DNA of 51,546 nt, taken from the NCBI GenBank assembly GCA_000806155.1, contig JWKX01000014.1, positions 1-51,546 of the forward strand, in the 5' to 3' direction. The position numbers and the translations under genes are program-made. Below are positions 4,879-40,247 of the stretch, one piece after another; positions within the stretch are counted from its first letter, which is position 1; every line of letters starts with the position of its first letter. Source of the stretch: an archaeon GW2011_AR18 (GTDB lineage Archaea > Nanobdellota > Nanobdellia > SCGC-AAA011-G17 > GW2011-AR18). The notes beneath the pieces are model-generated. The model searched no databases. It saw nothing but the letters and a program-made list of their open reading frames with translations, and was not told where the DNA came from.

Positions 4879-4898
4879 ATACTATAATATTATAGTAT
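4879..4898. promoter_or_regulatory. Perfect 20-bp palindrome overlapping the start codon of the wHTH-MNT gene
   Basis: ATACTATAAT|ATTATAGTAT; ATG at 4897-4899. Confidence 0.7.
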
Positions 4899-5511
4899 GA
4901 AAGATATAATAGTGCTTACAGAATTAGAAATAAAAATATTAATCCATTTTACAGGGGATTATAATCTAAAGATTAGTATATTGCAATTAGCAAAAAGATT
5001 AAAAATTCACTATCCAAATATTTATAATACAATTAAGAGTCTAGAAAAAAGAAATTTAATAATATTAGAAGTTGTTGGCAAGGCTAGTATTTGTTCATTA
5101 AATAAAAAATCACTTGAATTGCCTGTATATTTAGCATATGCAGAAAAAAATCAGGCAAATGAAATAATAAAAAAATTTCCTATTATTGATAGAATAGCAA
5201 GAGAGGCAATAAAAATAGAGCCTAATAGTATACTTGGCATATTCGGAAGCCATGTAACAGGAAATGCAGGAAAGCAATCAGATATTGATATCTTCTTGAT
5301 AACTGATAATAGGAAAGGATTTATTGACCTAATCCCAAGAAACTTTCCTCAATACGAAAAAAAAATAGATTTTAATATTATCTCATTTGAAGAATTCACA
5401 GAATCATTGAATACAAAAAAATTAACAATAAGTTCAGAAATAATAAAAAATAAGATATTAATATATGGTGCAGAAATTTATTATAATATTATGTTGCAGA
5501 AGGAATTATGA
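4897..5511 (+). CDS. Winged-helix + minimal nucleotidyltransferase (MNT) protein
   Basis: N-terminal HTH (ILQLAKRLKIHYPNIYNTIKSLEKRNLI), then GIFGSHVTGNAGKQSDIDIFLI (GS...DxD). Confidence 0.85.
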   Translation: MKDIIVLTELEIKILIHFTGDYNLKISILQLAKRLKIHYPNIYNTIKSLEKRNLIILEVVGKASICSLNKKSLELPVYLAYAEKNQANEIIKKFPIIDRIAREAIKIEPNSILGIFGSHVTGNAGKQSDIDIFLITDNRKGFIDLIPRNFPQYEKKIDFNIISFEEFTESLNTKKLTISSEIIKNKILIYGAEIYYNIMLQKEL

Positions 5512-27195: not shown

Positions 27196-27249
27196 ATATT
27201 TGTGGGAAAGTTAAGGATTTATAAAGGTTTTTAGTGAGATTTTCTAATT

Positions 27250-27291
27250 TTTCTGTAAATCTTTCAACTTTTTCTCATAAAGACTTTTTAA
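27250..27291. repeat. Direct repeat copy 1 flanking the TA module
   Basis: tttctgtaaatctttcaactttttctcataaagactttttaa; two mismatches to copy 2. Confidence 0.8.
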
Positions 27292-27325
27292 TATTAAAAA
27301 TTATTATTATATAGAAAGTGTTAAA

Positions 27326-27350
27326 TATACTAAAGTATACCTAAGTATAC
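27326..27350. promoter_or_regulatory. Candidate TA operator
   Basis: Inverted repeat TATACT-aa-AGTATA (27326-27339); AAGTATAC repeated at 27333 and 27343. Confidence 0.6.
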
Positions 27351-27361
27351 GGAGGTTAAAA

Positions 27362-27598
27362 ATGAACACTACAATAAAAATTTATGAGGACACAAAGATG
27401 CATCTTGATAAATACAGAGAATACAAGAATGAAAGTTATGATGAAGTAATTAAAAAATTGTTATTCATAGTTGAAAAAGTTAAAAAAGAGCCTGAATTAA
27501 GCATTGAAACAATATTGTCTATTGAGAAAGCTAGAGAAAGAATAAAAAAAGGCAGATTCTTAAGTGAAGAAGAAGCAAAAAAGAGGCTTGGTCTGTAA
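27362..27598 (+). CDS. Antitoxin-like protein of a type II TA pair
   Basis: MNTTIKIYEDTKMHLDKYREYKNESYDEVIKKLL...; overlaps toxin start. Confidence 0.75.
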   Translation: MNTTIKIYEDTKMHLDKYREYKNESYDEVIKKLLFIVEKVKKEPELSIETILSIEKARERIKKGRFLSEEEAKKRLGL

Positions 27599-27846
27599 TG
27601 TACTCTCTGATATTAGATGAAGTAGCAATAGATCTAATGAATAAATTAGAAAAACCAATTAAGGAGAGGATATTTAAGAAAATATTAGAAACTAAAGAAA
27701 ATCCCATGCATTATTTTGTAAGATTATCTGGAAGAGATGACTATAAACTTAGGGTAGGCGATTATAGAATAATAGCTGATATAGAAAATAATACTATAAA
27801 GATAACATTTATAGGTCATAGAAAAAATGTTTATAATAAAATATAA
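27598..27846 (+). CDS. RelE/ParE-family toxin
   Basis: HYFVRLSGRDDYKLRVGDYRIIADIENNTIKITFIGHRKNVYNKI. Confidence 0.85.
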   Translation: MYSLILDEVAIDLMNKLEKPIKERIFKKILETKENPMHYFVRLSGRDDYKLRVGDYRIIADIENNTIKITFIGHRKNVYNKI

Positions 27847-27854
27847 TTCTATAA

Positions 27855-27896
27855 TTTCCGTAAATCTTTCAACTTTTTCTCATAAAGGCTTTTTAA
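27855..27896. repeat. Direct repeat copy 2 flanking the TA module
   Basis: tttccgtaaatctttcaactttttctcataaaggctttttaa. Confidence 0.8.
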
Positions 27897-27902
27897 ATTC
27901 AT

Positions 27903-28967
27903 TTGCTTAATCTTATTATGGCTGATGAAAAAGAGTTTTTGCATATTATCTCTATTATTCAGAATGCTAAGGATAGAGCTTTTTATTCTGTTAATAAGGA
28001 ACTTATTGATCTTTACTGGAATATTGGTGAATACATAAGTAAGAAAGTTGATAATTCTGAATGGGGTAAAGGTGTTGTTGAGAATTTAGCTGAATATATT
28101 AAAGATAAAGAACCTGAACTTAAAGGGTTTACTAAGTCTAACTTATTTAGGATGGTACAGTTCTATAAAACTTATAATGATAATACAAAAGTCGTGACAC
28201 TGTTACGACAAATTAGCTGGTCTAATAATATGTTAATCCTAAATAGGACAAAGTCTATTGAAGAGAAAGAATTCTATATTATGTTAAGTATTAAAGAAAG
28301 ATATAGTTTTAGGGAGTTAGAACGACAGATTAGTAGTAGCGTTTTTGAGAGAACAATGATTTCTTCTATTAAAATGTCTAAATTAAGTAATAAAGACAAA
28401 AATCTCGGCAGTGCTGAGACAATTGATACAAAAGTGTCAGCACTGCTGTCACAATCTAAACCTAATCTTTCTGATATTTTCAAAGACACTTATATTCTTG
28501 ACTTTCTTGATCTTCCTAAGGATTATTCTGAAAAAGACTTAAGGTCTTCATTGATTAAGAACTTTAAGAGTTTCATTCTTGAACTTGGTAAGGATTTTGC
28601 TTTTATAGGTGAAGAGTATAAGTTACAGGTTGGTAATAATGATTATTTTATTGATTTATTGTTTTATCATAGGTCTCTGCAGTGTCTTGTTGTTTTTGAG
28701 CTGAAGATTGATGATTTCAAGCCTGAGTTTTTAGGTAAGCTTAATTTCTATCTTGAAGCTCTTGATAGGGATGTTAGGAAGTCTTTTGAGAATCCTTCTG
28801 TTGGTGTTATTCTTTGTAAAAGTAAGGACGATGAGGTTGTTGAATATGCTCTTAATAGGAATCTATCTCCTGCTATGATTTCTGAATATAATACTAAGCT
28901 TATTGATAAGAAGATATTATGTAAGAAACTGAGAGAGATATTTAGGATAATTGGTGGTTATGATTAG
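27903..28967 (+). CDS. YhcG/DUF1016 PDDEXK nuclease-domain protein
   Basis: ELIDLYWNIGEYISKKV...GKGVVENLA...FIDLLFYHRSLQCLVVFELKIDDFKPEFLGKLNFYLEALD. Confidence 0.88.
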   Translation: MLNLIMADEKEFLHIISIIQNAKDRAFYSVNKELIDLYWNIGEYISKKVDNSEWGKGVVENLAEYIKDKEPELKGFTKSNLFRMVQFYKTYNDNTKVVTLLRQISWSNNMLILNRTKSIEEKEFYIMLSIKERYSFRELERQISSSVFERTMISSIKMSKLSNKDKNLGSAETIDTKVSALLSQSKPNLSDIFKDTYILDFLDLPKDYSEKDLRSSLIKNFKSFILELGKDFAFIGEEYKLQVGNNDYFIDLLFYHRSLQCLVVFELKIDDFKPEFLGKLNFYLEALDRDVRKSFENPSVGVILCKSKDDEVVEYALNRNLSPAMISEYNTKLIDKKILCKKLREIFRIIGGYD

Positions 28968-29229
28968 ATATTCTTATGATATTAATTGAGTATTAAAGAA
29001 ATATTAATTTTAATTAATTATTTTTGAATATTTCAGGCACAAACCTAAGGTTTTTGCATTTTCCTGACTTTGATGAAAACTTTTCTAAAAAACTTATAGA
29101 AAGACAAAAATCTGGAAAAGGATTTACTAGATATAACATTGTATATATACATCTTCTATATAAAAAATACCGAAAAAGTCAGACACTGTCTAACCAATCC
29201 TCATTTTTAATGTTTAAGACACTTCTATT

Positions 29230-30111
29230 TTATTTCAACCCCAACTTATCTAATATCTTAAATGCTTCCTTATCAAATTTTGAGAATGCAAACCATTTTT
29301 TGCCTAAGTCTTTTAATGATGCTCCAATATGATAAACTTCCTTATTATCAATTATTAGAAACCTATCATGTGATTGATTAAATTCTTTCAATATTATTGG
29401 ATTATATTGTGTATTGTACTTTTCAACATCTAATATTAATTGTTTTGAAATATTATTTGTATAAATTATAACATTCACATTTTTTTGGCATTTAGATAGA
29501 AGAGTTAAAACTGAATCATCAACATAATTATCAATAATAGATATGGAATATTTTGCTTCTCTTAGTAAATCAGAAACAAATTTATGAGCATCAAATACCT
29601 GACCATTAAAAAATATCCCTTGTTTTGGCTTGATGTCTTTACTTTGTATTGCGTCAAATATTTCATCAAACTTATCATCATGCTCAATTTGTTTTCTTTC
29701 AACTCTGTCCAAACGATGAAAAACTTCTGCATTTTTAGATATAAAATTTCTCATAGAGACAAATGCACTCATTATCTGAATACTCATTTTTACAGCAGTA
29801 TCACTTTTCAAAACTCCAGATAGCATAGCTACTCCTTGTTCAGTAAATACATAAGGTAAATACTTTTTATGAGTTCCACGTCCATTTTTTATGGTCACAA
29901 TTTGTGACCTTAAGTTATCAAACTCGTTATTTGTTATTTGAAACATAAAGTTCTCAGGAAATCTTTCACTATTTCTCTTAACAGCTTGATTTAATGCTTT
30001 TGTCTTAACATTATAAATCTCTGCAAGATCAGAATCAAGCATTACTTGTGTATTTCTTATTGTATAAATTCTGCTTTTTATATTATCTGTGTTTAATGTT
30101 AAATTTGCCAT
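29230..30111 (-). CDS. ORF6N-domain protein with PLD-like C-terminal segment
   Basis: IYTIRNTQVMLDSDLAEIYNVKTKALNQAVKRNSERFPENFMFQIT...; C-terminal HDRFLIIDNKEVYHIGASLKDLGKKWFAFSK. Confidence 0.85.
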   Translation of the reverse strand: MANLTLNTDNIKSRIYTIRNTQVMLDSDLAEIYNVKTKALNQAVKRNSERFPENFMFQITNNEFDNLRSQIVTIKNGRGTHKKYLPYVFTEQGVAMLSGVLKSDTAVKMSIQIMSAFVSMRNFISKNAEVFHRLDRVERKQIEHDDKFDEIFDAIQSKDIKPKQGIFFNGQVFDAHKFVSDLLREAKYSISIIDNYVDDSVLTLLSKCQKNVNVIIYTNNISKQLILDVEKYNTQYNPIILKEFNQSHDRFLIIDNKEVYHIGASLKDLGKKWFAFSKFDKEAFKILDKLGLK

Positions 30112-30248
30112 ATTTTTATTTATTATATTAAATTAATTTTAAAGTTTAAATTAGTTTCTGAGAAAAAATGGAAGATATTTCAGAAATTCTAAAAATCCTT
30201 CCGAAATTTTGCCTAAAGACTTTTGAACTTTAAATATTTAATGTTATA

Positions 30249-30911
30249 ATGAAAATTAATGACATTCCTTTCTATAGTCGTCCTGATTATAAGTTAATAA
30301 ATAAGGGTTCTTTGTATCTTGATGATGCTGAACTATTGGCTATTCTTTTTGGTAATGGTAATAAAAATGAAAGTTCTATAGAACTTGCTAATAGACTGTT
30401 AAATACTTATAATCTTGATAAATTAGATAATTTAAGCTATAATGAACTTAAGGAAGAGTGTAATGATAAGATAAAGCCTTTGAAGATTTTAAGTTTTATA
30501 GAATTAAGTAAAAGATATTCTAGATTGATTAAGAATGGTTATTCTAAAAAAATTAATTCTGCTGAAGATGTTTTTAATATGTTTCATGATAGGTTAGTTA
30601 ATGAGAAAAAAGAACATTTTATTGTTTTGATGTTAGATATTAAGAATCAGATTATTAAAGAAGAGACTATATCTATAGGTACTTTAGGAAATTCATTGAT
30701 ACACCCTAGAGAAGTTTTTAAATCTGCTATTAAAAATAGTGCATATTCTATAATTTTAGTTCATAATCATCCTTCTGGTGATTGTAATCCTTCTAAAGAA
30801 GATGTTGATATTACTGAAAGATTGATTGAAGTTGGTAAGATGGTTGATATTAAGGTTTTAGATCATATTATTATTGGAAGAGAAGAGTGGAAGAGTTGGA
30901 AAGAAATATAA
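30249..30911 (+). CDS. radC: RadC/JAB-domain protein
   Basis: EHFIVLMLDIKNQIIKEETISIGTLGNSLIHPREVFKSAIKNSAYSIILVHNHPSGDCNPSKEDVDIT. Confidence 0.88.
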   Translation: MKINDIPFYSRPDYKLINKGSLYLDDAELLAILFGNGNKNESSIELANRLLNTYNLDKLDNLSYNELKEECNDKIKPLKILSFIELSKRYSRLIKNGYSKKINSAEDVFNMFHDRLVNEKKEHFIVLMLDIKNQIIKEETISIGTLGNSLIHPREVFKSAIKNSAYSIILVHNHPSGDCNPSKEDVDITERLIEVGKMVDIKVLDHIIIGREEWKSWKEI

Positions 30912-30913
30912 GA

Positions 30914-33900
30914 TTATTTATTTTCAGAAATATCAAAGAACCTTTCAAAGAATCTAGTGAATTTTTCAATAATAGTTTCACGTTTTTTAGTACGTTCTCC
31001 TGCCTTAGAAAAACGAGATATAGGAGGTAAAACTTTAGTTATTGCTGTTCCTGTTGTTGATATACAACCATCTCTGAATGCATTCTCGATAAATCTATAT
31101 GTTTCATAGTGATTAAGGTTTTCATCTTTAATTATTCTTTCTAATTCTTCAATTTTCTTTTTCTCTACGAAGTTTTGCCAATCTTCATCTACCACTGATT
31201 TTATATTAAGAGATGCAATAAATTGTTCAATAAGATCCTTTTTATTTCGTAATTCTACACTCGAATCTATTGCTTTATTAATATCTATTAAAATTTCTTT
31301 ATCTTTTATATTTTCTTCATGATATTTCTTGATGAGTTTTAGAATGTAATCAATATTAATTTCTATTTGCTTAATAAGTTCCATTTCAAAAACAATATCA
31401 TCATTAATATTTTCTTTTTCTGTATCTTTACTTTTTCTAAATTCATTATAAAGGTCTATGTATAAACTGTGGTAATCTTGAACATCTCGCTCAGTTAATA
31501 TCTCATTACCATCAAATTCATCAAAAGTTGTAAGAATATTACGAACTCTTAAAATGCCACCATAAAGTTTAATGAAATCTTTTTGATTCTGTTCCCCAAG
31601 TATCCTCTCACCTATGGGAAATTTTTCTTGTAATTCTTCAATTAAACTTTTATATCCTCTTATTGTTTTTCCATCTTTCTCATAACCATTATAATATTCT
31701 CTGTAAGTTTTTAATAAAACAATTCCACTTGCTTCTTTATCTCCAAAAAGTGAGATAGATTCATTAGTTGCTTTTTCTAGGTTACGGAAACAAATAATGT
31801 TTCCAAAAGTTTTTATACTATTTAATATACGGTTAGTACGAGAATATGCTTGAAGTAAACCATGCAATCTTAAATTTTTATCTATCCATATAGTGTTTAA
31901 TGTAGTGGCATCAAATCCTGTCAAAAACATGTTCACTACTATTAAAATATCTATTTCCCTATTTTTTACACGCTCACTAATATCTTTATAATAATTCTGA
32001 AACTTATCAGAGGAGGTATTGTATGAGGTGCCAAACATTTTATTATAATCTTTAATAGCACTTTCTAAAAATTCTCTCGAACTTTCATCAAGTCCGCTTG
32101 TGTCTTCAGAATTTTCATCAATTACTCCATCTATTTCTTCTTTATTTACACCAAAACTATATATTGTTGCTATTTTGAGTTTTTTATCACTAGGTAAATC
32201 TTTGATTTGTTTCTTAAATTCAGAGTAATATTTTTTAGCAACATCAATAGAAGAAACGGCAAAAATAGAATTAAACCCGACTAATCGACGGTCTTTTAAT
32301 TTGTAAAAAATGTTTCTCTTTGTTTTTTGATCAAAATGTTCAAAAATATACTTAACAATATTGTTTATTCTTTTGGGTGCAGAAAGTGCAGCTTCTCTAT
32401 CAATATTATTAACTTTTTTATCTTCGATATTCTCTGCTTCTTTAAGTGTCGAAATATAATCTACCTTAAAAGGTAAAACATTTTTATCAGCAATAGCATT
32501 TACAATTGTATAAGTATGTAATTTATCGCCAAAAGCTTGTTCTGTTGTTTTTAAGTCCACTCTTCCGCCAGAAGATGAATTAACAGCAAAAATTGGCGTT
32601 CCTGTAAACCCAAAAAGATTATAGTTGTTAAATGCTTTTGTGATTGCTGTATGCATATCTCCAAATTGTGAACGATGACATTCATCAAATATCAGTACAA
32701 TATGTCCATCAAAAATATTATGTCCTTTATTTTTTGCTATGAATCTATCCAGTTTTTGGATTGTAGTTATAATTATCCGAGCATTAGGATCTTCAAGTTG
32801 CTTTTTTAAAATTGATGTGCTTGTATTGCTATTTGCAGCACCTTTTTCAAATTTATCGTATTCCTTCATTGTTTGATAGTCTAAGTCTTTTCTATCAACA
32901 ACAAATAAAACTTTATCAATAAAGTCTAGTCTGCTTGTTAATTGTGCGGTTTTAAAACTCGTTAATGTTTTTCCTGAACCTGTAGTGTGCCAAATATAAC
33001 CTCCTGCTTTTACAGTTCCAAGTTGTTTATAATTTGTACTTACTTCAATTTTGTTTAAGATTTTTTCAGTTGCAACGATTTGGTAAGGTCGCATAACTAA
33101 AAGTTGTTTATCTGTAGTAAATACACAATATTTTGTTAGGATGTTTAGAATGGAGTGTTTTGCAAAAAATGTTTTTGTGAAGTCAACTAAGTCTGTAATT
33201 GGTCTATTTGTAGAATCTGCCCACCAACTAGTAAATTCATAACTATTACTTGATTTTTTACCTTTTTTTTGTATTCCTTTAGCCTCTTTGATGTGTTCAA
33301 AACGAGTTGTATTACTATAATATTTTGTATGTGTTCCGTTAGAAATAACAAAAATCTGAATATATTCATATAAACCGCTTGATGCCCAGAAGCTTTCTCT
33401 TTGATAACGATTTATTTGATTAAATGCTTCTTGTATTGCTACTCCTCGTTTTTTAAGTTCAATATGTACTAAAGGCAAACCATTTATTAAAATAGTTACA
33501 TCATAACGATTTTTATATTTTCCATCTTCCGTTTCATATTGATTAATTACTTGTAAAGAATTGCTGTGAATATTATCTTTTTTTAGTAGATAAATATTTT
33601 TACTTGTACCATCATCACACTTTAAAATTTTAATATAGTCTTCTTGTATTGTAGCTGTTTTTTCTGCAATACTTTGGTTTGGATTTGCTAATTCACTATT
33701 AAAAAAATGTTTCCACTCTTTATCACTAAAAGTATAATTGTTTAATTTTTCTAATTGCTTTCTTAAATTTAATATTAAATCCTCTTCCTTTGTTATTTTA
33801 ATATATTCGTAAGCTTGAGTTTGTAATTGTTTGATGAAAAATTTTTCTAACTCTGCTTCGCTTTGATAACTTTCTGCTCTTTTTCCATAAGGATGAGAAT

Positions 33901-33964
33901 ATTCTGCTACAACAGTGCTTTCAGGATTTTGTGCTACAAGATTGTAATTTTTATTATTTGGCAT
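30914..33964 (-). CDS. hsdR: Type I restriction enzyme HsdR
   Basis: VHIELKKRG nuclease motif, GYIWHTTGSGKTLTS Walker A, LIFDECHRSQFGDM, GFTGTPIF. Confidence 0.95.
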   Translation of the reverse strand: MPNNKNYNLVAQNPESTVVAEYSHPYGKRAESYQSEAELEKFFIKQLQTQAYEYIKITKEEDLILNLRKQLEKLNNYTFSDKEWKHFFNSELANPNQSIAEKTATIQEDYIKILKCDDGTSKNIYLLKKDNIHSNSLQVINQYETEDGKYKNRYDVTILINGLPLVHIELKKRGVAIQEAFNQINRYQRESFWASSGLYEYIQIFVISNGTHTKYYSNTTRFEHIKEAKGIQKKGKKSSNSYEFTSWWADSTNRPITDLVDFTKTFFAKHSILNILTKYCVFTTDKQLLVMRPYQIVATEKILNKIEVSTNYKQLGTVKAGGYIWHTTGSGKTLTSFKTAQLTSRLDFIDKVLFVVDRKDLDYQTMKEYDKFEKGAANSNTSTSILKKQLEDPNARIIITTIQKLDRFIAKNKGHNIFDGHIVLIFDECHRSQFGDMHTAITKAFNNYNLFGFTGTPIFAVNSSSGGRVDLKTTEQAFGDKLHTYTIVNAIADKNVLPFKVDYISTLKEAENIEDKKVNNIDREAALSAPKRINNIVKYIFEHFDQKTKRNIFYKLKDRRLVGFNSIFAVSSIDVAKKYYSEFKKQIKDLPSDKKLKIATIYSFGVNKEEIDGVIDENSEDTSGLDESSREFLESAIKDYNKMFGTSYNTSSDKFQNYYKDISERVKNREIDILIVVNMFLTGFDATTLNTIWIDKNLRLHGLLQAYSRTNRILNSIKTFGNIICFRNLEKATNESISLFGDKEASGIVLLKTYREYYNGYEKDGKTIRGYKSLIEELQEKFPIGERILGEQNQKDFIKLYGGILRVRNILTTFDEFDGNEILTERDVQDYHSLYIDLYNEFRKSKDTEKENINDDIVFEMELIKQIEINIDYILKLIKKYHEENIKDKEILIDINKAIDSSVELRNKKDLIEQFIASLNIKSVVDEDWQNFVEKKKIEELERIIKDENLNHYETYRFIENAFRDGCISTTGTAITKVLPPISRFSKAGERTKKRETIIEKFTRFFERFFDISENK

Positions 33965-35062
33965 TTATTTTACCTTCCATCTGAATTCTTTAACAAAATT
34001 ATCGAATGTTTCTTGAAATAAATTTTTTTCATCATTAGATAATTCTTTGTATTCTAAATCTGATAATTTGCCATGGCTATTTAAATTTATAAGTTTTATG
34101 CATTCTTGGTTATTATCGCCTAAGACACAATTTTGCCACTCATCATATCCTAAAAAATTAGCAGTTTTTTCTAATAAATTTCTAAAAAGATTAAAATGGT
34201 ATTTCTGAATATTATTATTGTTAATGGCTTTTTGAATCTCAGCCATCACCACAAAATGATAGCCAAATGGAGAATCATCTTTAGTTTCAAGTTTTAATTT
34301 TGTGTCATATTTTGATAAAATATATTTGTACTCAGTTTTCTTAAAGGAATTGAATAAAACGTTATAAAATAAAGCATGATGGGTTGTTATAAGAAATTTT
34401 AACTTTTTGTTATTAGATCCTTTTATTACTTTAATCAATTCTAGGGTCATCATAATTAGTTTATTGTCATCTACAGACGAAACCGGATCATCAATAATAA
34501 CATATTCTAATTCATTAAATATCTCTGTTGATCTATTACATTCTTCAGTAAGATTTAATTCTTCAATAGCTGTTTCCAAAATAGTATAAAAAACGGACCA
34601 AATAAGAACACTTTCTTCGCCTCTAGAAATTTTTATATTTGGGGCAATTTCTTCATTTCCCAAAGGTGTATTAAAGGTTACTTTGCCCTTAGTTAAGTCG
34701 AAAGATGGTTCTATTTTAGTGTTAAGAATATTTTTGAAATTATTTATGATTTTTTTATCCATTCCCTCATCTTTAATTATTTTCGCTTCCCAAGAATTTG
34801 AATTAAACTCCAAAATAAATTCATCATTATTCCATTTAAATAAATCTTCTAAAAGAGCATTGTAACATAATACTTTAATATTTGTTGATTCATTTTTATC
34901 ATCTAATTTAATGAATTCATTTGATAATCTTGTTTTTCCTGTAGAATTGAAAGCGTACACTATCGCAATTTGTTTCTTATCTGTGCGTGTATCAAGATTA
35001 CTTTTTATCTCTATGGCAACTTCTTCAATTGAATCAAATTCAGCCACTTGATTTGACCTCAT
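33965..35062 (-). CDS. prrC: PrrC-type anticodon nuclease (ABC-ATPase + ACNase) homologue
   Basis: IVYAFNSTGKTRLSNEF, ISRGEESVLIWSVFYTIL, VIIDDPVSSVDDNKLI, LITTHHALFYNVLFNS, HFNLFRNLLEKTANFLGYDEW...NLNSHG; lies between hsdS and hsdR. Confidence 0.9.
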   Translation of the reverse strand: MRSNQVAEFDSIEEVAIEIKSNLDTRTDKKQIAIVYAFNSTGKTRLSNEFIKLDDKNESTNIKVLCYNALLEDLFKWNNDEFILEFNSNSWEAKIIKDEGMDKKIINNFKNILNTKIEPSFDLTKGKVTFNTPLGNEEIAPNIKISRGEESVLIWSVFYTILETAIEELNLTEECNRSTEIFNELEYVIIDDPVSSVDDNKLIMMTLELIKVIKGSNNKKLKFLITTHHALFYNVLFNSFKKTEYKYILSKYDTKLKLETKDDSPFGYHFVVMAEIQKAINNNNIQKYHFNLFRNLLEKTANFLGYDEWQNCVLGDNNQECIKLINLNSHGKLSDLEYKELSNDEKNLFQETFDNFVKEFRWKVK

Positions 35063-36179
35063 TAAAGCTTAACAATTTATTTCTGTAATATTCATATTGT
35101 TGCCGTCTTGCTTTTAATTCTGTTGGAAGACCAATTGAAATATCATTAACAAGAGCATCGAATTTATCAAGGATTTTAACTATTCGTTCTTGTTCAGGTA
35201 AATATGGAATTGGGATTTTTATTTTTTTAACATTTGGGACTGTTAATTGTGGGATACTTCCACCACTATGACCAATTTTAGTAATATCAAGTATATAGTT
35301 AAGAAATTTAGAGGTGATAATTTCAGTTTTAGGAATAAGTATTATTAAACGTACAATGGGTGTAAATTTTGGATTACGAACAGCATGATATCCAATTGTT
35401 CCGCGTGCAGATATTGTTACAGCTTCATTATCAATACTATATTCATCAGTATAACCATATAATGCGTTTTCTTCTGTGCCGTTAGAATAAATAGGAAATG
35501 GAAATGCGGACGTAGACACTTTTTGACCTTTTAAATATCTCTTTGGTAAATCTCCTCCTGCATTTATAGATAAACATGCTTCATCTAAATTCATCCACTC
35601 AATACCATCTCCAAAAGTCAATAATTCTTCTCTATAATATTCATATTGTTTCTTTCTTGCTTCCAGCTCCGCTTCCAGCTCCGCTTCCAGCTCCGTAAAA
35701 TTATCAAGAATTTTAACAATTTCTTCTTGGATTAGAAGAGGGGGACGAGGGATTTTAAATTTTTCAATCATTGGTTTTCTTATTGAAGAGACTGTTGCAG
35801 TTACTGCATGTTTTAATATGTATGTTTTGAATTTCTCAAATAAGTAGTAATAAGCATATTTTACATTTATCTCATCAGTAGTAAAGTGAATCCTATATGC
35901 ACGTTGATGCAATGCATATTTCCCCTTTATGTAGTGAAATATTTCGCCAATACCTCCCTCACCAGGAATGATTATTGATTCTTCATCAAATTCAAAAGTA
36001 TTTATAAATTTAACATGTTTAGATCGAACAAATAAAGGATATTTTCCGTTTTCAATTGCTTCATTTCCATTACTACTCCCAGTGCCTACTTCAGCAACTT
36101 CCCATAACTCTTTAAACTCAACACCATCGGGACAAAGTTCATTAATTAATTTATCAATTTTATTCATATTGTTAACCAT
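35040..36179 (-). CDS. hsdS: Type I restriction specificity subunit HsdS
   Basis: Two TRD halves, each followed by a related coil (ELEARKKQYEYYREELLTF / ELKARRQQYEYYRNKLLSF). Confidence 0.93.
   Translation of the reverse strand: MVNNMNKIDKLINELCPDGVEFKELWEVAEVGTGSSNGNEAIENGKYPLFVRSKHVKFINTFEFDEESIIIPGEGGIGEIFHYIKGKYALHQRAYRIHFTTDEINVKYAYYYLFEKFKTYILKHAVTATVSSIRKPMIEKFKIPRPPLLIQEEIVKILDNFTELEAELEAELEARKKQYEYYREELLTFGDGIEWMNLDEACLSINAGGDLPKRYLKGQKVSTSAFPFPIYSNGTEENALYGYTDEYSIDNEAVTISARGTIGYHAVRNPKFTPIVRLIILIPKTEIITSKFLNYILDITKIGHSGGSIPQLTVPNVKKIKIPIPYLPEQERIVKILDKFDALVNDISIGLPTELKARRQQYEYYRNKLLSFNEVKSSG
35659..35694. repeat. 3 x 12-bp perfect tandem repeat in the hsdS linker
   Basis: gcttccagctcc three times; encodes ELEAELEAELEA. 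Confidence 0.95.
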
Positions 36180-36181
36180 CT

Positions 36182-37759
36182 TTATTTTCCACTTTCAAGT
36201 TCTTCTACAATTTTATCAATTGCGGTTCTAAGTTCACTTTGTCTTTTAACGATTTCAGAAATTTTATTATTTAAATCTTTAATATCTGTAATTTCTCTAG
36301 TATCTTCTGCTACGACATAGCTTGAAACTGCAATATTATAATCATTTTCAGAAATTTTTTCGTTATCAACTAATTTTGTAAAATATTCTATATTTTCACG
36401 ATTCTTGAAAGCATCTAAAATCCTATTACGATTAGCATCACTTAATTTATTTTTATTTCCTCCACGAACAAACTCGGCAGAAGCATCAATGAATAAAGTT
36501 TTATTATCTTTTTTACTTTTTTTAAGTACAATTATACAAGTTCCAATAGTTGTTCCAAAAAATAAATCAGGTGGTAACTGGATAACACAATCAATATAAT
36601 TGTTATCTATAAGATATTTTCTAATCTTTTGCTCTGCTCCACCACGATAAAGAACGCCTGGAAATTCAACAATTGCAGCAGTTCCGCTTGTAGAAAGCCA
36701 TGAAAGCATATGCATAGTGAAAGCTAAATCTGCTTTACTTTTCGGTGCTAAAACTCCTGCTGGAGAGAAACGAGGATCATTAATCAGTAATGGATTCGCA
36801 TCTCCTTCCCATTGGATTGAATAGGGTGGATTTGAAACGATAGCATCAAATGGCTCATCATCCCAATGTTTTGGGTCTGTAAGTGTGTTGCCATGAGCAA
36901 TATCAAAATTATTATAATTAATATCATGTAAGAACATATTGATACGACAAAGATTGTAAGTTGTTAAATTAATTTCTTGACCAAAAAAACCTTGACGTAC
37001 ATTTTCTTTACCAAGAACTTTAGCAAATTTAAGAAGCAAAGAACCAGAGCCACAAGCAGGATCATATACTTTATTAACATTCTTTTTGTCAACAATAGTA
37101 ATTTCAGCTAAAAGTTCGCTAACTTCTTGAGGAGTGTAAAATTCTCCTCCTGATTTTCCAGCACTACTTGCATACATAGTCATTAAAAATTCATAAGCAT
37201 CACCAAAAGCATCAATAGTATTATCTGAATAATTTCCAAGACGAAGTTCACTTATAGATTCTAAAAGCTTAACAAGTTGTTTGTTTCTTTGTTCTACTGT
37301 ATTTCCTAACTTATTTGAATTTACATCTAAATCATCAAACAATCCTTTTAACTCATCTTCACTTTCTGTTCCTTTAGCAGAATTTTCAATATTTTTAAAA
37401 ACAGCAGATAAAGTTTCATTTAGATTAGAATCGTTACGAGCATTTTTTGTAACGTTCTTAAATAACTCACTTGGTAAAACATAAAAGCCTTTTTCTTTAA
37501 CAGTATCAGCTCGACCAAATTCTGCTTCTTTATCAGACAATTTAGAAAAATCAAAATCCTTTTTCCCAGCACGTCGTTCATCATCATTAATATAATTAGT
37601 TAAATTTTCACTAATAAAACGATAAAAAAGCATGCCTAAAACATATTGTTTAAAGTCCCAACCATCGACACTACCTCTTAAATTATTTGCAATTTGCCAA
37701 ATAGTTCGATGCAGTTCTGATCGTTCTTGTTCTTTTGTTACCATTTTAATCTTCTCCAA
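36182..37759 (-). CDS. hsdM: Type I methyltransferase HsdM
   Basis: SAGKSGGEFYTPQEVSELLAEI, VYDPACGSGSLLLKFAK, DAIVSNPPYSIQW. Confidence 0.95.
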   Translation of the reverse strand: MEKIKMVTKEQERSELHRTIWQIANNLRGSVDGWDFKQYVLGMLFYRFISENLTNYINDDERRAGKKDFDFSKLSDKEAEFGRADTVKEKGFYVLPSELFKNVTKNARNDSNLNETLSAVFKNIENSAKGTESEDELKGLFDDLDVNSNKLGNTVEQRNKQLVKLLESISELRLGNYSDNTIDAFGDAYEFLMTMYASSAGKSGGEFYTPQEVSELLAEITIVDKKNVNKVYDPACGSGSLLLKFAKVLGKENVRQGFFGQEINLTTYNLCRINMFLHDINYNNFDIAHGNTLTDPKHWDDEPFDAIVSNPPYSIQWEGDANPLLINDPRFSPAGVLAPKSKADLAFTMHMLSWLSTSGTAAIVEFPGVLYRGGAEQKIRKYLIDNNYIDCVIQLPPDLFFGTTIGTCIIVLKKSKKDNKTLFIDASAEFVRGGNKNKLSDANRNRILDAFKNRENIEYFTKLVDNEKISENDYNIAVSSYVVAEDTREITDIKDLNNKISEIVKRQSELRTAIDKIVEELESGK

Positions 37760-37946
37760 TATCCTTCCTATTACTCAAACTAACCTTATAATCCTTGTTA
37801 ATCTTAACTAAATTAACAATACTATTATCAATTTCTTTTTAATTATTTAATCTCCAATAATATGCTTGCCTCATTCTTAAAAATTTGTTCAAACATTTTC
37901 TTCAATATTTTAGAATTAAAAGAAGTTTATATCCTTTATTATCTAC

Positions 37947-38942
37947 CTATATAACCTCAACCCTTTTATTCTTCACAAGTATCTCTACTATCTTCACAGG
38001 CAAGTTAGCCATATCTTCTGCTTCATATGGTCCATAGATATTCAAATCATCCCCTAAGAACTTAGGAACAGGTTCTACAAACCTTACTGTCTGATTCTTC
38101 TTCTCTTCAACTTTAGATTCTCCTTTAATTATGACTTTATCAGGCTCTTTTCCATCTAATAGATTATATAATACATTCTTCCTATAATTATTAAATAAGT
38201 TTACTAGTGCATTATACATCTCTCTCTCATCTTCTAGTAATGCATCTGCATCCTGTACTGTTCCTGATGCTCTTGAGCTTGATAATGCTAAATCTATTAT
38301 TTTTGTCTCTCTTTTCTCATATAATTCTTTCAATAACATCTTACTATTATCTAATTGTCTTTTAGTCTTACTTATACTATCATTTGCAAATACACTATCT
38401 TTTGATTCTTGACTCTTTAATATTGCCTTCTTCTCCTCTAGATACCTTAATAACTTTTTATAGAAGCTCTTATCAATTTTCTGTAACTCTGTTTTATACT
38501 TTTCTAACCTTAATGTTTCATACAAATTATCAAATGTGATTACTCCATCTTCCATTATACTAATCTCTGGTATCTCTGTTAATGCCTTTTCTACTGTCTC
38601 TATTGCTATTGATTTACCATAATAGTTAGTGCTGTTCCTTAATTGCCTGTACCTGTCAAATTTTATTGATAATTCATTCTCTTTTAATATATCTTTTAAA
38701 AAGTATGTTATTGACTCATGTGATTCAAATTTATATCCTTGCATATATCCTATTGCCTCACAATACTGTCTTAGTGCTTCATATAACTCTCTTAATATGC
38801 TTACATAGTTATGTTCTAATACTCTTAATTCTTTTGCTGATAATATTGCATTCTCTGCTGCTTTTATGAGGCTTTTTGCTCTTGTATTGTCTTTTATCAC
38901 AATTTTTGCATATCCCTGTTCTATACTGTTTTTGAATTCCAT
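37947..38942 (-). CDS. Apparent HEPN-GINS fusion: residues ~1-129 HEPN-like, ~130-331 archaeal GINS
   Basis: N-terminus AKSLIKAAENAILSAKELRVLEHNYVSILRELYEALRQYCEAIGY...YRQLRNSTNYYGKSI; C-terminus ITFDNLYETLRLEKYKTELQKIDKSFYKKLLRYLEEKK...TVRFVEPVPKFLGDDLNIYGPYEAEDMANLPVKIVEILVKNKRVEVI. Internal ATG at 38555. Confidence 0.8.
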   Translation of the reverse strand: MEFKNSIEQGYAKIVIKDNTRAKSLIKAAENAILSAKELRVLEHNYVSILRELYEALRQYCEAIGYMQGYKFESHESITYFLKDILKENELSIKFDRYRQLRNSTNYYGKSIAIETVEKALTEIPEISIMEDGVITFDNLYETLRLEKYKTELQKIDKSFYKKLLRYLEEKKAILKSQESKDSVFANDSISKTKRQLDNSKMLLKELYEKRETKIIDLALSSSRASGTVQDADALLEDEREMYNALVNLFNNYRKNVLYNLLDGKEPDKVIIKGESKVEEKKNQTVRFVEPVPKFLGDDLNIYGPYEAEDMANLPVKIVEILVKNKRVEVI

Positions 38943-39475
38943 TATACAACCTCTAATTTTCCTGCTAATGTTATCCCGTTTATTATGTTATTTACTAATT
39001 CAGGATTCTTTATTTTCATATTATTGAATTCTTTTTCTGTTAATCTGTGTATGCTTATTTTTCTTTTCAGTATTTTTTCGTATTTTTCTTTATTGAACTC
39101 TTTTTGTATATTTGTTAATATGAATATGTCTATATCACTGTTTTTTGTGTTTGTTGCTGTTGCATAGCTTCCAAATAATATTATTGTAGGGTAATCATAA
39201 TATTCTTCAAGTTCTTCTATTATTCCTGATTCTCTTAGTTTATCAAGATTATAATATAATTTATTGTTGATGAATTTTTTATTTTTTGTGTTTGCTATAT
39301 AAGTTTCATACAATTTTGTATCTTTTTTTTCTAATAACCCATCTTTTACAAGATTATTTAAATATTTTCTTGCTGTCATATGATTTATCTTTGCTAGTCT
39401 TGCTATCTCTCTTATGTGATACTCTCCTAATGGGTCTTCGAAAAAATATTGTAATATTAATAATTCTTTATCCAT
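38942..39475 (-). CDS. Winged-helix + MNT nucleotidyltransferase protein
   Basis: HIREIARLAKINHMTARKYLNNLVKDGLLEKK, then ILFGSYATATNTKNSDIDIFIL; TAATG junction with the HEPN-GINS ORF. Confidence 0.88.
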   Translation of the reverse strand: MDKELLILQYFFEDPLGEYHIREIARLAKINHMTARKYLNNLVKDGLLEKKDTKLYETYIANTKNKKFINNKLYYNLDKLRESGIIEELEEYYDYPTIILFGSYATATNTKNSDIDIFILTNIQKEFNKEKYEKILKRKISIHRLTEKEFNNMKIKNPELVNNIINGITLAGKLEVV

Positions 39476-39486
39476 GTGTATAATAA

Positions 39487-39504
39487 TATATACAGTTGTA
39501 TATA
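39487..39504. promoter_or_regulatory. Candidate operator upstream of wHTH-MNT
   Basis: TATATACA-gt-TGTATATA, 12 bp upstream of the start codon. Confidence 0.65.
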
Positions 39505-39578
39505 AATATTTCTATTTACTTTTAATTTGTATTTTCAAACACTAATAACTTTAAAATCTGGTTCTTTTCACTATTTCT

Positions 39579-40247
39579 ATGGTTTTATCACTTAATGCCT
39601 TTGGAATTCCTGATTATCCTTATTCTGAATGGATTTTATTGTCTCATAGGACTATGTTTTCTGAATCTTTAGTAATTTATGATAATAATGAGTCTATGTC
39701 TTCTAAACCTAAGGATGTTGATCTATGGATTCGTTGTATAAAGAGCTTAGCTTTCCCTAAAACTAATAATGAACCTAAAAGAGCTAAATCAACAGAAAGT
39801 CCTGTACGTTTCAATCTTTACAATGGTTGGGATGAGGATTTAATGAATTCTAGGACTTATGATGGAATGTTTTCTGTTCTTGAAAAACTTAATGCATCTT
39901 ATATGCCTGTTCTCTGTCGTCCATCTGAAGCTCCTTTTAATCCCTATTCTCTTCCTGGAGCTTTTCCTGATATTGTTTATAGTTCTGATATTAGGTCTAG
40001 ATTTATAAGTTCTGTAAAAGATACTATTAAGAAAATTGGGGGTAGTGATGCCTGTATTAATCATGAGATGGATTATTATCATCAGTTTCCTGAAAGGCTT
40101 CGTTCTCTTCAACTTCTAGATGATTTAGTTTCAAAGAATCCACCAAGTAGTTTAAGATCAAGTGGCTGGGATGCTGATCGTGTTGCATATCCTTATTATA
40201 TCAGTTTAAAGAGAGAACATGATGTAAGTCGTGCTTATCTGTTTTAA
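39579..40247 (+). CDS. Hypothetical protein
   Basis: 222-aa ORF with no recognised motif. Confidence 0.6.
   Translation: MVLSLNAFGIPDYPYSEWILLSHRTMFSESLVIYDNNESMSSKPKDVDLWIRCIKSLAFPKTNNEPKRAKSTESPVRFNLYNGWDEDLMNSRTYDGMFSVLEKLNASYMPVLCRPSEAPFNPYSLPGAFPDIVYSSDIRSRFISSVKDTIKKIGGSDACINHEMDYYHQFPERLRSLQLLDDLVSKNPPSSLRSSGWDADRVAYPYYISLKREHDVSRAYLF

Follow-up and report, generated by a model that had tools for sequence, protein, structure and literature searches.

An in-frame HEPN-GINS51 fusion at the native gins locus of a DPANN archaeon

In the DPANN archaeon GW2011_AR18, GINS51, which belongs to the core of the DNA-replication helicase, is encoded as the in-frame continuation of a HEPN domain, directly downstream of an MNT nucleotidyltransferase gene. 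Within the window, the 51,546-nucleotide stretch of contig JWKX01000014.1 analysed here, the fused ORF (331 codons, 331 aa) lies at 37947-38942 on the minus strand, and its HEPN part runs stop-free into GINS with the coordinates and frame of the original prediction. The fusion is real, and we think it probable that an insertion and a deletion put gins51, presumably single-copy and essential here, both under and inside a class II-type MNT-HEPN module, an accident that the cell tolerated and that later became locked in. The evidence read from the DNA consists of the fusion, its native locus, the loss of a promoter, intact motifs and a conserved dyad; the features are collected in Table 1.

Table 1. 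Features of the MNT-HEPN-GINS51 locus, in window coordinates
Feature	Position	Strand	Evidence
MNT promoter TATA element AATATTTATATACA, 31 nt upstream of the ATG	39497..39510	-	matrix score 12.9, reached by 0/2242 coding positions
18-bp dyad TGTATA-TATTAT-TATACA (TGTATA-N6-TATACA), ending 1 nt upstream of the MNT start; probable operator	39477..39494	-	co-varying half-sites
wHTH-MNT nucleotidyltransferase (antitoxin type), 177 aa, motif GSYATATNTKNSDID = GSX10DXD	38942..39475	-	Polbeta, NTP_transf_2, PDC-M05A
Shine-Dalgarno GAGGT before the HEPN ATG	38949..38953	-	sequence
HEPN part of the fusion (residues 1-129)	38556..38942	-	pLDDT 96.2 model, Foldseek 2hsb and HepT, PDC-M05B 5e-9, 21/21 conserved columns, L034 comparison
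Gins51 part of the fusion (residues 130-331)	37947..38555	-	PF22090 1.6e-13, 3anw, alignment with 10 stand-alone Gins51

The C-terminal part, which had been read as a full archaeal GINS protein, is a complete Gins51. Its own C-terminal portion matches the Pfam family Gins51_C with 50.7 bits against a cut-off of 27, and T. kodakarensis GINS51 (3anw) is both a sequence match (E=1.6e-6) and the top fold match, 5ghr being a further fold match. An A domain followed by a B domain (Gins51_C) is present, as in other archaeal Gins51, whose native gene neighbours are also retained, and identity to stand-alone Gins51 of the same family is ~56% over the whole length. At 5 of the 42 columns that are invariant in 10 relatives the fused GINS differs, more than any other row of the alignment, and all of the changes are conservative. 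A search of its own genome (822 kb, 90% complete) found neither a second GINS51 nor a Gins23, although the missing part could hold another gins, and archaea with Gins51 alone have been described as forming homotetramers (PMC3114041).

The N-terminal part has a HEPN fold, as predicted. Residues 1-128 are well folded in the AlphaFold model, and the closest solved structure is the HEPN protein 2hsb (Foldseek probability 1.00, TM 0.74, with modest E-values, the best of them 2.8e-3), followed by HepT/MntA structures. The fused HEPN sequence alone has no significant Pfam HEPN match; PF05168 is matched by four of its relatives, at best with 1.1e-4, and PADLOC PDC-M05B matches the fused copy itself. 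Pfam matches to ERF and DUF1980 were sub-threshold, and both were rejected as the identity of this part. Where class I HepT has RX4HXY, the fused HEPN reads RNSTNYYG. The predicted change of His to Tyr is therefore real, and in an alignment of 29 relatives the His is missing there too and Tyr107 is nearly invariant, so that by this comparison the change is a trait of the whole family, stand-alone members included, and not decay of the fused copy. All of the conserved columns are kept, and relative to the nearest stand-alone MNT-HEPN locus (L034, in genome G002 of the same family) there is no acceleration of rate and dN/dS is about 0.12 for HEPN and 0.18 for MNT, tests that mostly cover the time before the fusion, with dS near saturation.

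The preceding gene encodes, as had been proposed, a wHTH-MNT protein that meets HEPN-GINS51 in a TAATG junction, and its GSX10DXD motif is intact; LFGS and SD.D are invariant in the MNT of 17 loci. Its Pfam matches are Polbeta (2.7e-11) and NTP_transf_2 (PF01909, 4.4e-11), PADLOC PDC-M05A matches at 5.6e-17, and NCBIfam MntA matches at 6e-8, which is under its cut-off. As neighbouring genes, both proteins match PDC-M05A/B, a candidate defence system only, of which a GINS fusion is no part. With type VII (class I) HepT/MntA the pair shares the HEPN fold and the GSX10DXD motif, but RX4HXY is absent, the MNT has an extra wHTH, and a toxin role here is by analogy. A HEPN with Tyr for His beside an MNT fits class II HEPN/MNT (PF05168/PF01909), and is thus not special to the fusion: class II pairs, which are common in archaea, likewise join a GSX10DXD MNT to an adjoining HEPN that has no RNase motif (no RX4H) and keeps a conserved Tyr that may accept AMP, and toxicity of class II HEPN was not demonstrated in the study that describes them (PMC7641770). 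In stand-alone relatives the two genes abut or overlap, whereas in the window no stop closes the HEPN gene, which runs on into Gins51. DPANN proteins of cls.004259 also appear to tie MNT and HEPN to house-keeping contexts, but in those proteins the partner of HEPN is MNT, and in the fusion it is a replication protein (PMC6393860). Two more MNT-HEPN pairs that stand alone and belong to this broad family occur in the genome of the fusion, L002 (G000:C9) and L003 (G000:C4), and the window contains a second MNT-type nucleotidyltransferase gene at 4897-5511 (+).

The surroundings of the fused gene are those of gins51 in its relatives, where the order is truD, apgM, gins51, eL42, eIF2alpha; in the window apgM, truD and ftsY lie upstream of the fusion and eL42 and eIF2alpha downstream. 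Because the flanking genes are the same, the fused gene is, on gene order, the native gins and not a transferred extra copy. The order in relatives is part of a known clustering of archaeal gins with translation genes (PMC2643942). Compared with the archaeal gins-eL42-eIF2alpha locus, the one in the window has an N-terminal HEPN extension, has lost its promoter (see below) and carries a restriction-modification island of ~10 kb (window 27200-37760) between gins51 and eL42, two genes that adjoin each other in relatives. The genes of the island are those of a type I R-M system (HsdM, HsdS, an AAA_13 ATPase, HsdR), RadC, an ORF6N protein and a YhcG-type PDDEXK protein. On the other side, apgM and gins are separated by MNT-HEPN and by an ORF of 222 aa at 39579-40247 (+), located between apgM and MNT, which has no Pfam or PADLOC match and no counterpart in the gins loci of relatives.

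The join itself falls at the old gins start. Met130 of the fusion aligns with the start codon of the 10 stand-alone gins genes, in which a Met stands a few residues before ITYE, the equivalent in the fusion being M130-EDGVITFD. In L034 the stand-alone HEPN closes with EIPDIIKKLKKHIKL-stop, whereas the fusion reads EIPEISI and then M130, and ~10 C-terminal residues of the stand-alone protein are absent. By this comparison, the join cost the HEPN gene its stop and ~10 C-terminal codons and cost gins its upstream region; the start codon of gins stayed in frame. The model of the fusion shows the last HEPN helix stopping at 128, low confidence for residues 129-155 and GINS helices from 137 onwards, so the predicted structure is that of two domains with a low-confidence linker starting at residue 129. 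An 11-nt string, GTATAATGGAA, is common to the HEPN start codon (38942) and the GINS start codon (38555), possibly by chance and possibly as a trace of recombination.

Among the matches in 103 genomes of the order we found no HEPN in the frame of any other gins51, and among the matches listed from 378 genomes of the class and 371 of the phylum HEPN-GINS is absent; among these matches the fusion was seen in this genome alone, and in the others examined gins and MNT-HEPN are separate genes. Several long gins51 frames were considered as fusions and rejected: in G023 (324 aa) the upstream part is nothing but an unrelated open stretch opposite truD, those of G411, G410 and G382 have long A-B linkers and no HEPN, and those of G420 and G409 have an unrelated upstream stretch and no HEPN. 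A contig scan for gins gave only two stand-alone gins loci, phage records yielded no relative, a full-text literature search on HEPN-GINS fusion found nothing relevant, and a 2013 survey of HEPN proteins makes no mention of GINS (PMC3710099). Between this genome and G002, HEPN and MNT of L034 are 71% and 75% identical to those of the window and Gins51 is 51% identical; the greater likeness of the module suggests that it probably moved horizontally.

From these observations a simple course of events can be proposed. A mobile class II-type MNT-HEPN module, toxin-antitoxin-like, would have landed directly upstream of the native gins51, and a deletion would then have removed the HEPN stop, the ~10 last HEPN residues and the gins promoter, joining the frames at the gins start codon. 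An alternative is that the HEPN domain was recruited by selection as a signal-receiver or tether of the replisome, where nucleotidylation of HEPN-GINS by MNT would hold back or halt replication when the cell is stressed or attacked by a virus. In favour of such a regulator are the intact state of both domains and of the MNT active site, the conserved Tyr that class II HEPN proteins keep and that may accept AMP (PMC7641770), and the type I R-M genes that adjoin the fusion; however, a fusion found in one genome only shows no trace of long selection, insertion and deletion at the native gins locus explain the join, and no sign of a signal was seen. We regard this reading as unlikely, and slightly more doubtful is the specific proposal that the operon's MNT sets replication by nucleotidylating the HEPN of HEPN-GINS51, the module acting as a replication switch, for example a stop in virus attack. 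Of the predicted coupling of an MNT-HEPN module to GINS, the in-frame join, the intact catalytic motif and the folding of both domains stand, and the recruitment as a regulatory or tethering domain is not supported. The more likely origin is a tolerated accident that became locked in.

Of 13 relatives, 9 have a clear TATA element ~30 nt ahead of the ATG of gins, a spacing expected of leaderless mRNAs, and the other 4 have no good score at -30. At the internal ATG at 38555, which exists as predicted, the best TATA score near -30 is -2.5, a value reached by 79% of coding positions, and no Shine-Dalgarno precedes it. On this comparison the gins promoter of most relatives is lost in the fusion genome, and the strong promoter that is left is that of the MNT gene, over the 18-bp dyad. 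The HEPN start has its own GAGGT, and a similar GAGGT precedes several stand-alone HEPN genes. The promoter loss, the bare internal ATG and the MNT promoter with its co-varying dyad are new here. A rival reading is that free Gins51 is made from 38555 and that the fusion is a minor product or has no effect. In its favour, the original start Met is precisely retained, and archaeal initiation is possible without a Shine-Dalgarno, as at many archaeal starts; against this, 38555 has neither TATA nor Shine-Dalgarno, most relatives do have a gins TATA, and it is the HEPN start that has GAGGT. Translation of free GINS from this codon is, we judge, improbable. That two loci were wrongly joined in assembly is highly improbable: the evidence for the fusion does come from one MAG (17 contigs, 90% complete), the sole genome of its genus in the collection and so the only one for comparison, but gene order is native on both sides, the two frames meet without a shift and precisely at the start codon of gins, exact matches of the junction region to other parts of the genome do not exceed 16 bp, and neither a second gins51 nor a near-identical HEPN copy was found there.

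The dyad is found at the same position, with co-varying half-sites, in most of 20 MNT-HEPN loci (besides the window, L002, L034-L038, L041, L063-L065, L067, L068, L070-L072, L074, L075, L078 and L079). In an in-register test its half-sites formed on average 5.25 of 6 pairs, and 2000 shuffles gave a mean of 3.68 and never more than 4.3; when inverted repeats ahead of MNT were sought without a fixed register, most loci gave no significant result. The pattern of the dyad suggests an operator, which the wHTH of MNT would bind, and the dyads before the MNT genes of MNT-HEPN pairs probably form a family of autoregulatory operators.

Following the tolerated accident, GINS51 would be made as HEPN-GINS51 from the MNT promoter, under the wHTH-MNT operator, with MNT repressing the promoter of the module. 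The GINS part presumably still forms a homotetramer that serves the replicative helicase and would bind MCM and GAN, and the HEPN domains are predicted to hang on a short flexible linker, able to pair. MntA nucleotidylates HepT, and by analogy MNT presumably still binds the HEPN part and may nucleotidylate it, so that modification of the fusion is plausible. Because homotetramers are described for Gins51 alone (PMC3114041) and HEPN proteins pair (PMC11586414), the four tethered HEPN domains could form two pairs per tetramer. The module would become undeletable because it carries an essential gene.

The locus thus offers a natural case in which a mobile module of toxin-antitoxin type is joined to a single-copy replication gene and apparently controls its transcription. 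Addiction could hardly be more direct, since loss of the module would be loss of GINS. An active RNase held in fixed ratio on the replisome would be hard to tolerate, and the fusion makes it testable whether class II HEPN is toxic at all, whether MNT modifies it, and how the helicase accommodates HEPN domains on all of its GINS subunits. The 18-bp dyad in turn gives a testable model of autoregulation for archaeal MNT-HEPN modules generally.
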